Source: Sordariomycetes sp. S80-01Y
Lineage: Eukaryota; Ascomycota; Sordariomycetes
Direction of reading: 5' to 3'
Assembly: GCA_037042185.1 (NCBI GenBank)
Contig: JAXQJY010000020.1
Coordinates: 1-64,000, forward strand
DNA: 64,000 bases
Shown here: positions 18,212 through 63,443 of the stretch, piece after piece
Layout: each line of letters starts with the position of its first letter
How positions within the stretch are numbered: the stretch's first letter is position 1
Translations under genes and position numbers: made by a program
The notes under the pieces: generated by a model
What the model was told of the DNA's origin: nothing
Seen by the model: the letters and a program-made list of their open reading frames with translations, nothing else
Database searches by the model: none

Positions 18212-21200
18212 TCAATTTCCTCTACTATCCGGTGTGAGAATTTGTGTCAGCAAATCCTTCGGCTTCCCTCTCTGGTCGTGCCCTTGTAGCCCAGAATCGA
18301 AATCTACCCCCAGAAACCGGCGAGCGACTTCTTCAGCCACCTGAAGCTTTACTTCTTCCTGCTCAGACAACTTAGCACATGCCGATACTAGATCCTCATT
18401 GCGCGAGATAAGTGTTGAAATAGCCTCCGCTCGCCGAACAACGGCACCAGGGACGCCATTAAGAGCGGCGCATCGACCGCCAAAGCTAGAGTTGCTGTGT
18501 CCGACCTTGAGAGTGAACAGGTAGGTGATTTGGCTTTCGGGCTGGATTGCCTCAGGATCTGTTACCACTTCCATGTGGAATACACCAAGGTTGGGGCACC
18601 CGACAAGATACCCACCCTCGAAGAGCTCGTGAAAGTGAGTCGCTAAGAGAAAGCGAGGTACACTGTTGCCCGCTGTCAGAAAGTGATCGAGAGTTGCTGC
18701 AAGGAGGCCAGCGCCATCATCAGCATTCGTGCCCTTACCAAACTTATCGATAAGAACAAGGCTCTGGGGGGTGGCAGACTTGATCGCCGTACTGACTTGG
18801 CGAAGCTCGATTGCAAAAGCACTTTCGTTTCGTGAAACGCTTTCTGCCGTTGACAGTCTCGTCAAAATCTTGTCCGTGACACCAATTATGGCCTTGTCAG
18901 CAGGCACAAAGCTACCGATGTGCGCCAGGTACACAATGATAGCCGTTTGCTTAATATAAACGCTCTTGCCAGAATGGTTAGGGCCAGTCAAGACCATTGC
19001 CGAGCATGCGTTATGGGGACCAAATGGAGTTCTTCCCGTACCAATTGCGCAGTTGTTCGGTACGAAGGATGGTACGACCAGTTCTTGTAAAGGATGTCGC
19101 CCAGATGTGATCTCTATCGTTGCCGACTGCATGACTTGGGGGCAACTCCAAGCGTACTTTTCCGCCCCCTTTGCCAGGGCTAAATGAGCGTCAAACTCGC
19201 CACAGATATCAGAAGCTGTGCCCAAAGCATTTTCGGAAAGCAGAACATCTCTGGCTAGCTGGTGAATGATCTCGACCTCCCTATCTGGTCCTGTGAGCCA
19301 TGAATTCGTGGAGCGACTGTGTATATCTTACCTCCAATCTCGCTGTACATATCTCCGTATTGCTGATCAAGTTCGTCCATGAACTTATTCTTGTAGCAAA
19401 CGACGTCGGAGTCAACAATTTTACGCTGCCATTGGCCCTCATCAGAGCCTTCCCCTTCGTATTTACCCGCCCGCCTTGCTGAATCACGCTCGACAACAGT
19501 CAAGAAGCCTAACTGAGGCAGAAAGATGCATGATTTGATATACTGTGCCGCCCACTGTGGGATTCGTTGATTGATATCGTTCACAATATTGGTCAGGAAG
19601 CTGTCCATTCCTTCATATTGCCGCCTCATATCGTCAAGTCGGGGATCAATGCCGGCTTTGACAGAAGGGCGACGCCTGTCTTTCGATTGTTCGAAGTCGA
19701 TAGTCCTATCAATGGCATCGCCAATAGCCATAAGCTTAGCTGGCAATATCGCGTCCAGGACTCTGCGAATGATACACAATCCTCCCCCATCTGCGAGGTT
19801 GCTGGCTAACTCCCGTAACCTAAGGGCATACGCGGAGAAGCCCCGAAGCGTGGCCCACACTCCCCTGTAGAAAGATTGCCTGGTCGATGAAGAATCTATC
19901 CCTCGTTTCAGATTTGCGATTGCTGACCTAATATTCCTTACTCGCTTCAAAAGCTGAGAGGCATGTTTGACGAAGTCTGTATTGGTAGGGCGCACAAACA
20001 GAGATATAGTACGCTGTCTCTCTAAAATCAAACTGACGTCCAGCGAAGGGCGCATGAACATCAGGCGCAAAGCGTCTCGGCCCTGAGGTGTACAAACCAG
20101 GAGATGAAACAGCCCGTACACAGATAAGCCCTCCTTTGGGTCAGCAGGACTTGGGCCTGGCCCGCAGATCTGGCTGCCTGGGTGTCTTTCCGATTGAATG
20201 ATTTGCAGAGACTGTAGAGTTTCGGCGCTGACAAACATGTGGTTTGATAAAGAGAACATCCGAAGCGTACGAATATGGAACACTACCTCTGCAGCTTGAC
20301 CGTCCGGCAGGAAGCCGACTGAGCGACGGCGATGGAGATCCGCGAGTACGGCGCCTGCGGCGTTGACCTGGTAAATGTAAGTCTTGAACGTGGTGAAATT
20401 TCTTTGCTGCCTACCGAGACATAGCTGTCCAGATTGATGACTGTACCGCATCGTAAAGCCTCAATGTGCCCAGCCTCACGTGGGCGTCCAGCGCCATCCA
20501 TCTCTTCTGCAACTAGGTCACCTTCATTTGCCAAAGTCACTATTGCTTGAATATGCTGATTGTCATCGAGCTGAAGACTCAGCAATCTATCGCGAGCGGT
20601 TTCGTTGACGAAGTCGGATGATGCTAATGCACGCAAGATGTAAATCGCAGACCCAGCGTCTGACCTTTGTTAGCGCAAGCAATTCGTACGCGGGTTTCCA
20701 TACCTTCTCCAGGACCATGTGAACGGGCTTCCAAGAACCCGAGAAGCTGTTCAGGGGCTCTGCAGGATATCAGGATGGTAGTCGGTTGGATGTGCACGAC
20801 GAGCTGCTCAACAACATCAAGGGTTGCCCAGGGGATGTCTTGACAGAGCGCCAGTGTCCCATCTCCCGTGTTGAAAGCGGCGCAACCTATAGTAGCCTTC
20901 TCTCTCATGTCGATGGCCATAATGATCTCGTCCACTACAGACTCTTCAAATTCAGGCTGACCCCGTAGAAGCTCGTCACCTACCACACTTTGGACAGTTG
21001 AGGGACTTGCTCTGGCCGCGGACCTCGATCTGACTAAAGCTGAAGATGGCATGCCCGGACTGTAAGTCTGACCTGGGGTGCCGCCGCGACTAAAATTGGA
21101 TGGTGTTCGGGGATTATCTTGCTGGTCTTGTTGTCCCTGCCTTCCATGTGAGCGTGGCGTGCCTTTGCGACCTGGCCTAGATGGCAGGCCCAGGGTAAAT

Positions 21201-21313
21201 GGGCTGCCTCTGGAAACGGCTCTCCGCCTCCCCATAGCTTGCGGCTCGGATCTTGACGAACTTGAAGCTGGTGTGTTGCCACGAGAGCGGGAACAGTGCA
21301 GTCTTTGCCGCAT
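18212..21313 (-). CDS. MSH5: Meiotic MutS homologue MSH5
   Basis: Four exons (20704-21313, 20415-20659, 19332-20367, 18212-19284) encode about 987 aa. Msh5 pairs with Msh4 as MutS-gamma to stabilise recombination intermediates and promote meiotic crossovers. Identity rests on the MSH5-type N-terminal block (AIDMREKATIGC), the long MutS core and lever region, and the ATPase domain with Walker A GPNHSGKS at about residues 731-738, the AHIGSFVPA block, and the SRNESAF block. The first 120 residues are Arg/Ser/Pro-rich. The Walker B region reads LVLIDKFGKGTN: the catalytic Glu of the usual ID-E-FGKGT is replaced by Lys (AAG at 18743-18745), which may impair ATP hydrolysis. The rest is intact. Introns are 44, 47 and 47 nt. 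The third acceptor could instead be six bases earlier (41-nt intron, two extra residues). Confidence 0.9.
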
Positions 21314-43320: not shown

Positions 43321-43745
43321 CGTGTAATGTTGATGATGTAGGGCGGTGTTTGGATTGAGAACTATTGCTGTTTTCTGGGGTTGAAGGTGAGCGATTCCTG
43401 GCGGTCGTTCTTGCCCTGTGCTCAGCCTTTCAAAATGTGAAGGTGGGATGAGTTAGAGTTGCTTTGAAGGTAATGAAATTAGAAGGACTAAGGTAAGGTG
43501 CCTGGGTTGGTAGCTGTAAAAGGGGCGACTCAGCCTAGCAGCCGCTACCAGTAGCGGACGGTACTACTACTTAGTACTAGTTGTGGTCATGAGGTACCTG
43601 GGTAGGTAGGCACGTCAATAGGCACCGTGCATGTAGGTTCTAGTGAAGGTAAGTTACCACCACAAGCGGGGCTCACACCAGGCTGTCGTAACAAAAGCAT
43701 ATTCGCTTCGAACGCTCAATCTTACAGTTAATAGTAGTACATTCC
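43321..43745. other. Intergenic region with TACCT/AGGTA motifs
   Basis: This holds the upstream region of the BTB gene and the 3' flank of the CSN8/PSMD8/eIF3K-family gene. AAGGTAAGGTG at about 43490 and GAGGTACCTGGGTAGGTAGG at 43591-43610 belong to the motif group seen upstream of MSH5. No gene is supported. Confidence 0.6.
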
Positions 43746-44720
43746 TCACTTCCTCTTTGCACTCCTCACTCTCACGGTTCCCCCCTCCTCCAGCTCCCAG
43801 CCCACCCCGTCGACCCTCTTCAACTCTTCCCACCCTCGCCCCGTCACCCTCTCCAAGAAGCCCCTGTCCACGGACATGTACGTTCTCCCGAAAGCTTTCA
43901 ACGTAGTCACCCTCATCTCGCCCTCCGCAAACTCCATGATCCGCGCCTTCAGCCCATCAACTCTCCCCTTCAGCCTGCGGAACGCAACCCAATTGTCATG
44001 CACCAGCGCCTTGAGCACTGCGTCTACCCTGGCGTCCTTCAACCGGAATTTCTTTCTCAGATAGTACGCTTCCGCCAGCTCTCTCCTACGGCAAGCTGCG
44101 TCGAGCACTAGGAAGCCCACCACCTCCTGCAGTTCGATCGCTGTGAGGGGACTCTGCGGATGCAACACCCTGAGAAGGTACAGGATGGCAACGTGGTAGG
44201 ACTCAGGCTGCGCGACCAGGACTGAGGTGCGCACGCAGAAGAGGTATGCCTGCACGCTGAAGTCGTCGACCCGCTTGGAGGCTACTATGCCCTCGCGGAG
44301 TTTCCGAAGTCCCATCATGACGTCGGCTATGGGTTTGGAGTTGGAGGGGTTCGACAAAGCCTCTGCGGACGGTTTCGGCAGAAGGTTTGATGTTGAACCC
44401 TTCTCCTTTTTGGATTCCTTTGCTTCCTCACTTAAACCTTTCGCCTCCTTGGGACTTGAAGGCACAGCAGCTGGTTCATCCCTCACATCCAGCGCCGCGA
44501 ACCTTCTCAGCAGCTCATCCCGATTCCCCGCATCCGTGCACATGCTCAAATACCGATCCACAATCTTGGTATAGTACCTTTCCTGCTGCTTGTGGTCGAG
44601 CAGCCGCTTATCGCCCTTGGATACGAGGCCAATCGCCTCGAGGGGATCCATTTCCACGGGCTTGAGTCGGCTCCAGGGACCCGAAGGAAGGCGACTCCCT
44701 TTTTTGCCCCGTTGCGACAT
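43746..44720 (-). CDS. CSN8/PSMD8/eIF3K-family protein
   Basis: This is an intronless frame of 324 aa. After a basic N-terminus (MSQRGKKGSRLP), a helix-rich region contains a low-complexity linker (about residues 75-120, Lys/Glu/Ser). The conserved core follows: VMMGLRKLREGIVASKRVDD, then SVQAYLFCVRTSVLVAQPES, YHVAILYLLRVLHPQSPL and LVLDAACRRRELAEAYYLRK, then a winged-helix-like end (VLKALVHDNWVAFRRLKG). This pattern matches the SAC3/GANP/CSN8/PSMD8/eIF3K superfamily, whose members are scaffolding subunits of the proteasome lid, COP9 signalosome and eIF3. Which of these complexes it joins cannot be told from sequence, and it may be a fungus-specific member. The C-terminus is basic (VRSAKRK). 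Confidence 0.8.
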   Translation of the reverse strand: MSQRGKKGSRLPSGPWSRLKPVEMDPLEAIGLVSKGDKRLLDHKQQERYYTKIVDRYLSMCTDAGNRDELLRRFAALDVRDEPAAVPSSPKEAKGLSEEAKESKKEKGSTSNLLPKPSAEALSNPSNSKPIADVMMGLRKLREGIVASKRVDDFSVQAYLFCVRTSVLVAQPESYHVAILYLLRVLHPQSPLTAIELQEVVGFLVLDAACRRRELAEAYYLRKKFRLKDARVDAVLKALVHDNWVAFRRLKGRVDGLKARIMEFAEGEMRVTTLKAFGRTYMSVDRGFLERVTGRGWEELKRVDGVGWELEEGGTVRVRSAKRK

Positions 44721-61790: not shown

Positions 61791-63443
61791 ATGCACGTCC
61801 CCAAAGATGACGCCGCGGCGCCCCATCCCGCTGACGGCCTCCACGACTTCGAAGCCGCGCGCCCGTCCGTCGACAATGCCGACCACAGCGCGTCGCTGCA
61901 CGATCCCGACAGCGGCGTCAAGCGTGGTCTCAAGAACCGGCATTTGTCCATGATGGCCCTCGCTGGAATTATCGGGCCCGGGCTGCTCGTCGGAGCGGGT
62001 GGCGCGCTGAGCAACGGCGGCCCGGCGTCGCTGCTCATCGGCTTCGGAGTGATTGGGATAATTGCCTTCTTTATCATGCAATCGCTGGGCGAAATAACCA
62101 CCATCTTCCCGGGCGGCGGCAGTTTCGTGTCTCTGGCCGAGCGCATGGTGGATAAGTCCTTCTCGGTCGCCGTGGGCTGGAATTACTTCATCATCTGGGC
62201 GACGGTTCTCGCCAACGAATACAACGTCGTCTGCAGCATCATGACGTACTGGGTCCCCGAGGTGCCATTATGGGGCTGGTTCTTGATTCTCTGGACTTTC
62301 TTCATGGGCTTCCAGCTCCTCGGCATCGCCGCCTTCGGAGAGGCAGAGTTCTGGCTGGCCCTGTTCAAGCTGATGGGCCTGACGGCCTACTTCATCTTCT
62401 CCATCGTCTACGCCTCCGGTGGCCTGATCGGCCAGGACGAGCCCCTGGGCTTCCGCTACTGGAGCAATCCCGGCGCCTTCAATGGCAACGGCTTCCGCGG
62501 CGTGGCGACAGTCTTTGTTTTCTGCTCGACCTTTTACGCCGGCGTCGAATCCATCGCCGTCGCCGCGACTGAGACACGGAATCCGGGCACAGCCGTTCCC
62601 CAGGCCATCCGACAGGTCTTCTGGCGCATCATCTTTGTGTACATGGGCTCGGCCTTCTTCTTCGGCATCACCTGTCCTGCGAACGCCACGGAGCTCGTCG
62701 GTGCGGAGGCTAAAGCTCTGCAGAGCCCTATGACGGTTGCGATCCAGAATGCCGGCTTTGACGGGGGCGTGCACCTGATCAATGCCTTTATTCTGGTTAC
62801 CTGTCTTTCGGCCATCAACTCCTCCATTTTTATTGGATCGAGGACGGTCTTGTACATGGCGCAGCACGGAAAGGCGCCCAGGATCTTGGGCTGGGTGAAC
62901 AGTCGCGGTGTCCCGGTCTGGGCCATTCTGATCACGAATGCTGTCGGGTCGATCGCGATGATGAACGTTTCCACTGGCGCCGCCAAAGCATACGGCTACA
63001 TCGTCACACTGTCCGGTGTCAGCACGTTCCTCGTCTGGGGCAGCATCAGCTTCATTCACATCCGCTTCCGCCGCGCCTGGTCCTTCCAGGGACGCAGCGT
63101 CGCCGACCTGCCCTTCAAGAGCATGCTGTGGCCCTTCAACGCCTACTTCGGACTCGGAGCGAACATCTTCCTCGCCTTGGTCCAGGGCTGGACGAACCTC
63201 TCGCCCTTTTCAGCGGCCAACTTTGTCGTAGCGTACATCCTGTTTCCGGTCTTCGGAATCATCTACGTCGTTTGCAAGATCTACTGGCGAGGCAGGGACA
63301 ATTTTAAGAGAGCCGCCGAGATTGACCTGGATAGTGGACGGAGGACGGATCTGGATAAGGCGGGCATTTCGACGTTGGATGGGGAAGACGAGCAGGGTAT
63401 GGTCAAGAAGCCTTTCTGGACGAGGGTCTGGGATTGGTTCTAG
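61791..63443 (+). CDS. Amino-acid permease (YAT family)
   Basis: This is an intronless gene of 550 aa with about twelve membrane helices, a member of the fungal amino-acid/polyamine/organocation transporter family. The N-terminus is acidic and cytosolic (DLEAARPSVDNADHS-like), followed by the family start LKNRHLSMMALAGIIGPGLL, which is helix 1 with its substrate-binding Gly-rich break. Other landmarks are SLGEITTIFPGGGSF, a Glu-rich loop (AATETRNPG) before helix 7, and NSSIFIGSRTVLYMAQHGKA. The C-terminus is charged and contains Lys residues suitable for ubiquitin-dependent turnover, ending RVWDWF. The exact substrate is not clear; it is most like broad-specificity or basic amino-acid permeases of filamentous fungi. 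The paired GATA sites upstream suggest nitrogen control. The chosen start is the first in-frame ATG. Confidence 0.92.
   Translation: MHVPKDDAAAPHPADGLHDFEAARPSVDNADHSASLHDPDSGVKRGLKNRHLSMMALAGIIGPGLLVGAGGALSNGGPASLLIGFGVIGIIAFFIMQSLGEITTIFPGGGSFVSLAERMVDKSFSVAVGWNYFIIWATVLANEYNVVCSIMTYWVPEVPLWGWFLILWTFFMGFQLLGIAAFGEAEFWLALFKLMGLTAYFIFSIVYASGGLIGQDEPLGFRYWSNPGAFNGNGFRGVATVFVFCSTFYAGVESIAVAATETRNPGTAVPQAIRQVFWRIIFVYMGSAFFFGITCPANATELVGAEAKALQSPMTVAIQNAGFDGGVHLINAFILVTCLSAINSSIFIGSRTVLYMAQHGKAPRILGWVNSRGVPVWAILITNAVGSIAMMNVSTGAAKAYGYIVTLSGVSTFLVWGSISFIHIRFRRAWSFQGRSVADLPFKSMLWPFNAYFGLGANIFLALVQGWTNLSPFSAANFVVAYILFPVFGIIYVVCKIYWRGRDNFKRAAEIDLDSGRRTDLDKAGISTLDGEDEQGMVKKPFWTRVWDWF

Follow-up and report, generated by a model that had tools for sequence, protein, structure and literature searches.

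A Lysine Codon at the Walker B Glutamate Position of MSH5 in a Sordariomycete: A Candidate Site for Restorative A-to-I Editing

MSH5 of Sordariomycetes sp. S80-01Y encodes a lysine (Lys813) at the place of the catalytic glutamate of the Walker B motif, and this codon is predicted to lie in the loop of an exceptionally long RNA hairpin with a U directly ahead of its first A. From the predicted fold and from analogy with the edited transcripts of related fungi, we consider it probable that the lysine is undone in the mRNA by restorative A-to-I editing during the sexual stage. Editing accounts for the anomaly better than the four causes that had been listed in a preliminary description of this DNA, namely a hydrolysis-impaired Msh5, relaxed selection on meiosis in a mostly asexual lineage, an RIP-like change, and a sequencing error.

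The MSH5 Gene and Its Lysine Codon

MSH5 lies on the minus strand of the window, the whole stretch of 64,000 nucleotides that was analysed (contig JAXQJY010000020.1, positions 1 to 64,000). Its coding sequence (21313..18212) was modelled from open reading frames, the spliced frame, and Pfam matches as four exons (21313-20704, 20659-20415, 20367-19332, and 19290-18212), and the spliced frame is open for 989 aa when counted from the first Met. The three introns, placed by frame and splice signals, span 44 nt (20660..20703, GTATGG...CAG), 47 nt (20368..20414), and 41 nt (19291..19331) and all have GT-AG ends. The spliced protein matches the Pfam families MutS_III and MutS_V; the mismatch-binding MutS_I was not matched in the Pfam search at E values up to 1e-3, nor were MutS_II and MutS_IV. 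An NCBIfam search returned four matches to MutS-type and related models, all under their cut-offs. The MutS domain V ATPase (PF00488 profile search, E 2.4e-46) covers 18413..18997 and is stop-free, and the Walker A motif, with the pattern GPNxxGKS, is intact as GPNHSGKS. The Walker B stretch is found in the last exon as the frame LVLIDKFGKGTN, in which 18745..18743 read AAG, with the first A of the codon at 18745 and the U at -1 at 18746. MutS ATPases require the Walker B Glu to hydrolyse ATP, and at the DNA level MSH5 has Lys in its place.

A profile search of the genome (30.87 Mb in 16 contigs) found six MutS_V matches, which were assigned to MSH1 through MSH6 by motif and resemblance rather than by a tree. 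On this assignment, MSH5 is single copy and distinct from MSH1, MSH2, MSH3, MSH4, and MSH6, and its partner MSH4 is present. All five paralogs have Asp-Glu at the position equivalent to Lys813. A Glu was also found at this place in 80 of 80 prokaryotic MutS loci, the best 80 of at least 591 relatives retrieved with an alignment of all six paralogs as the query (79 of 79 by script and the 80th inspected individually). Two search patterns were used, one that omitted the Walker B residue and one that allowed only E or K there; the former was also matched by 58 of the 79 scripted prokaryotic loci. Within the ATPase domain, MSH5 departs from its paralogs at 10 of 38 paralog-invariant columns, and the Glu-to-Lys change is the sole one of these departures that takes away a catalytic group. 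The solved structures that were recovered comprise 37 distinct sequences of Msh3, MutS, Msh2, Msh6, and MutS2, with MSH5 not among them. In viral contigs, eight stretches matched a search pattern, and none was an MSH5 relative by tblastn. The preliminary description had claimed a Lys in place of the Walker B Glu at 18743..18745, a G-to-A transition from GAG to AAG, and an intact gene otherwise, and all of this is borne out by the codon, the Asp-Glu of the paralogs, and the open frame with its Walker A motif.

A Predicted Hairpin at Codon 813

The coding strand around the lysine codon is predicted to fold into a hairpin (minus strand, 18730..18758) with arms at 18758-18747 and 18741-18730 and a loop at 18746-18742. 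The fold, UGUUCUUAUCGA-[UAAGU]-UUGGUAAGGGCA, has 12 contiguous pairs, four of them G-U, and holds the AAG codon inside the five-nucleotide loop UAAGU. With 41-301 nt of context, the stem pairs are predicted at probabilities of 0.78-1.0; when the context is widened to 401 nt, the eight inner pairs hold at 0.94-0.97 and the four outer ones drop to 0.56-0.77. The A at 18745 is unpaired with a probability of 0.95-1.0 in contexts of 41-401 nt. Should the closing A-U pair open, the model would give a seven-nucleotide loop with UA at places 2 and 3, like U33-A34 of a tRNA anticodon loop.

The exceptional character of the site rests, within these predictions, on stem length and robustness and not on fold energy. 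The 41-nt fold has an energy z-score of -2.49, with 4 of 200 shuffles equally low, and total fold energy is ordinary in wider contexts (z -1.15 at 61 nt, -0.24 at 91 nt, and -0.46 at 121 nt). The background for the stem comparison was 102 open reading frames of at least 250 aa, some perhaps not genes, from the window and the other loci under study; the reading frame of the MSH5 site itself falls outside this set because it is overlapped by a longer one. A stem of at least 12 bp was found at none of the 3402 other U-preceded coding adenosines in a 201-nt context, where at least 10 pairs occurred once, at least 8 pairs 8 times, and at least 6 pairs 55 times, and where 356 sites had a robust small loop. 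These stem-length counts do not demand that the A itself be unpaired; when this was required, the numbers became 51 (at least 6 pairs), 8 (at least 8), and 1 (at least 10). Placement in a predicted loop is in itself common, being seen at 1276 of 3235 background sites in 61-nt minimum free energy folds and at 1740 of 3235 in 41-nt folds; at 158 of the 3235, a loop goes together with a 41-nt energy at least as low. The measure of stem length was picked after the fold was known; the folding itself was a test of the editing preferences, taken as background.

When the 20 residues that surround Lys813 were redrawn with synonymous codons, at least 12 pairs were reached in 4 of 4000 cases with the codon usage of MSH5 and in 5 of 4000 with that of five other genes. 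The looser combination of a loop, a U at -1, and an equally low energy arose in 107 and 132 of 4000 redraws, respectively. Among the 112 U-preceded adenosines of the MSH5 coding sequence, the codon-813 site comes first by stem, the runner-up having 7 pairs, and the equivalent codon of the five paralogs sits in no such loop. Small predicted hairpin loops also hold a U-preceded A at Thr319 (stem of 7 pairs) and Lys601 (stem of 5 pairs) of MSH5; editing would turn the former codon into one for Ala and the latter into one for Glu.

Fit to the Editing Rules of Sordariomycetes

Sexual-stage A-to-I mRNA editing in Sordariomycetes is reported to be carried out by Tad2-Tad3 with Ame1 (PMC11156358, PMC11087585). 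The main preferences described for this editing are a U at -1 and a position in a hairpin loop (PMC11156358, PMC9600606), and the other preferred bases are given as C/U at -2, A/G at +1, G at +2, and A/G at +3 and +4 (PMC9600606). The MSH5 site has the U at -1 (GAU-AAG), and its A at 18745 is predicted to stand in the loop of a stable hairpin. It has preferred bases in the A at +1 and the G at +2 and lies off-preference at -2, +3, and +4, where its A, U, and U are bases reported as depleted around F. graminearum sites (PMC9600606). With inosine at its first position, AAG is read as Glu, and of the missense classes named for F. graminearum, Lys-to-Glu is the largest, at 22% (PMC4817773).

The scheme that we favour would run as follows. 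The genomic Lys would be a G-to-A change that is reversed at the RNA level. As the fruiting body develops and MSH5 is required, the tRNA deaminase Tad2-Tad3, acting with Ame1, would deaminate the leading A of codon 813, which would be offered to it in a loop like that of a tRNA anticodon with U at -1. GAU-AAG would then be read as GAU-GAG, and Msh5 would recover its Walker B Glu and ATP hydrolysis. Co-expression of MSH5 with the editing complex in this fungus is presumed here, as are the editing of this A and the level that it attains. The yeast msh5-R685W allele, an ATP-hydrolysis-type mutant, is reported as null and its msh4 counterpart as tolerated (PMC2928781, PMC3828297); by analogy with this null phenotype, the Lys form translated from unedited mRNA would be expected not to function, which would make crossovers dependent on editing. 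Relatives that all carry Lys and are yet fertile would be the expected outcome under editing.

In the collection of papers searched, none was found on MSH5 together with RNA editing in Fusarium or on a Walker B motif spelled with Lys; among the matches listed, MSH5 was mentioned only in a glioblastoma paper. PMC5381528 and PMC4817773 do not contain the string "msh" in their main text.

Editing Machinery and Other Candidate Sites in the Genome

The genome encodes three DUF726 proteins, and only one of them, the AME1-like protein L019 (G000:C13:1431556-1432602), has the MV pair. In FgAme1 numbering, it reads MV500-501, E546, R548, D589, and H629 without gaps, in a register counted from the catalytic-serine position against the published FgAme1 residues rather than against the letters of FgAme1 itself. 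These are the residues described for FgAme1, among which MV500-501 is reported as editing-specific, with KN in the ancestors (PMC11087585). The nucleophile position of L019 is a Gly (GYGLA), in agreement with the reported dispensability of Ser531 of Ame1 (PMC11087585). This residue suggests that alpha/beta-hydrolase activity has probably been lost naturally in L019. The Tad3-contact residues are retained in the same protein. An in-frame TAG in a second DUF726 protein, L017, was considered as an edited stop and is instead read as the 3' end of an intron. From its HAE and PCVMC motifs, we take the deaminase L061 to be TAD2-like, whereas TAD3 was not identified in the genome.

A second candidate for editing is found in a CBK1/NDR-like kinase gene (L051, G000:C15:3046500-3049500), whose product has CBK1 as its nearest match in a comparison with solved structures (E 8.4e-36). 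Two in-frame TAGs occur at 824-826 and 1764-1766 of this locus, one of them in the DWW motif. The latter reads CDW-TAG-SIGIILYECLYG, falls inside conserved kinase sequence, and has an open frame on both sides, and its adenosine is predicted to lie unpaired (P 0.99) in a loop of 6 nt. For the TAG at 824-826, the prediction puts the A in the innermost part of a stem, where it is paired (P unpaired 0.05), and not in a loop. In F. verticillioides, PUK1 has a TGG-TAG arrangement that is reported to be edited in perithecia, and of the two TAGs only the DW-TAG corresponds to the described PUK1 site (PMC4817773). On the strength of this motif, L051 is the probable PUK1 counterpart. A 42-nt GT...TAG intron at this place was rejected since it would delete conserved kinase sequence that aligns with CBK1; wrong PUK1 gene models are described as removing conserved kinase sequence likewise (PMC4817773). 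Seven of 140 kinase matches hold a TAG, and six of these, L051 being the exception, were ascribed to an intron or to the edge of the match.

SPO22 is named among the stop-edited genes of F. graminearum (PMC4817773), and RID is another gene reported as stop-edited in that species. The SPO22 counterpart here has no obvious in-frame stop, its frame changes being read as introns, and the frame of the RID-like counterpart L015 is open with no obvious in-frame stop. A census of in-frame stops in the window and the loci (69 sequences, 315005 bases) left four candidates, all TAA and uninformative; the filters of this census also removed both TAGs of the PUK1-like gene. On the minus strand of the window, an in-frame TAA at 62185 is flanked by open frames of 67 and 133 codons whose composition resembles that of coding sequence, and the script test gave no intron there.

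Alternative Explanations

The alternative that survives best, loss of function, is in our view unlikely. On this view sex is rare, MutS-gamma crossovers have become dispensable to the strain or its lineage, and a G-to-A change, maybe favoured by the loop, removed the Glu and left an Msh5 that binds ATP and cannot hydrolyse it. A Lys at this position should indeed abolish hydrolysis, from what is generally known of MutS proteins, and MAT1-1 is the only mating type recognised, so that sex would need a partner. An alpha box of MAT1-1-1 is present in a stop-free match, next to a frame that is presumably MAT1-1-2, and both point to a Sordariomycete-like ascomycete. Of six HMG-box matches, five were inspected, and no MAT1-2 gene was recognised. 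An easily mutating loop would also account for the coincidence of hairpin and change; a loop-exposed base may mutate more often, and the hairpin may on that account be a mutational cause instead of an editing signal. However, the MSH5 frame is open through all of its 989 codons, and the matched stretches of MSH4, SPO22, a HORMA protein, and an SPO11-type protein (a TP6A_N domain without internal stops) are stop-free. Unless the loop does have such an effect, a random change that A-to-I editing could reverse would be unexpected in so exceptional a hairpin loop. Relaxed selection or asexual decay, as put forward in the preliminary description, thus finds no support in these genes, among them MSH4, whose integrity had been proposed there as a check.

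A regulated variant of the editing scheme was also weighed, and we hold it to be distinctly unlikely. Editing at codon 813 would be partial, so that a Glu form of Msh5 (competent) and a Lys form (hydrolysis-dead) share one ascus; the edited fraction would set the dwell of the MutS-gamma clamp on recombination intermediates and tune the number of crossovers, with MSH5 off outside the fruiting body.

Very unlikely, as we see it, is a clade-wide functional Msh5 that is hydrolysis-dead, in which the Lys is fixed and MutS-gamma runs on hydrolysis by Msh4 only; under the editing scheme, a hydrolysis-dead Msh5 would instead be the product of unedited mRNA. MutS heterodimers are asymmetric, which would suit such a division of labour, but of the two yeast subunits it is Msh4 whose hydrolysis-type mutant is reported as tolerated, and the corresponding Msh5 mutation equals the null one (PMC2928781). 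The Glu of all five paralogs and of the 80 prokaryotic loci described above speaks against this explanation as well.

An assembly or sequencing error seems very improbable. Only one base is involved, and strong inverted repeats are generally known to disturb sequencing, but the assembly is one of large contigs, the MSH5 frame is undamaged, and an error with many other places to fall would have struck the very adenosine that ranks first by stem in its coding sequence.

The weakest explanation, an unrestored G-to-A change left by RIP or RIP-like leakage, is extremely improbable in spite of the RIP context on the plus strand (CpA to TpA) and of the RID-like methyltransferase L015, given that MSH5 is one copy and that its TpA/ApT of 0.64 and (CpA+TpG)/(ApC+GpT) of 1.37 lie within the ranges of 12 other genes (0.42-0.76 and 1.06-1.51). 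The values taken to indicate RIP are general background. Of the earlier interpretation as a whole, the Glu-to-Lys replacement and its origin in a G-to-A transition stand, as does the integrity of the gene elsewhere; RIP and asexual decay find no support as causes. Elsewhere in the window, 1-1000 and 43501-44500 have TpA/ApT of 1.32 and 1.38 and G+C of 0.58 and 0.56; they were the only 1-kb windows (step 500) that the script flagged.

Significance and Comparison with Known Systems

Editing of this type is already known, and the MSH5 candidate is unusual in that the residue concerned is a catalytic one in an ATPase at the core of meiosis. If the reading is true, the crossover machinery of meiosis has a catalytic residue that is present only in edited RNA, chromosome segregation is directly tied to the Tad2-Tad3-Ame1 system, and annotation from the genome only may miscall the meiotic genes of such fungi as broken or the lineage as asexual.

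The nearest likeness is to PUK1 and the approximately 70 stop-corrected genes of F. graminearum, in which coding A-to-I editing is reported to restore a broken sexual-stage protein, with a U at -1 and a preference for loops (PMC4817773, PMC11156358). Those sites are stop codons that are edited, whereas the site in MSH5 is a missense codon at a catalytic residue and a candidate. With the conserved missense sites of F. graminearum and N. crassa, such as CME11, it shares nonsynonymous A-to-I recoding in Sordariomycetes; in contrast to CME11, which is described as requiring both the edited and the unedited form, an MSH5 edit would restore an otherwise invariant residue (PMC11156358). The yeast msh5 and msh4 ATPase-domain mutants concern the same protein and the same catalytic step, but they are laboratory alleles at G648 and R685 (PMC2928781), and the change seen here is a natural one at the Walker B Glu. 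Finally, ADAT (Tad2-Tad3) editing of tRNA A34 has in common with the MSH5 site a U before the A and a small, anticodon-like loop, and an opening of the closing A-U pair would make the A third in a seven-nucleotide loop, just as A34 is. The target in MSH5 would differ from that of ADAT in being an mRNA and in its need for Ame1.
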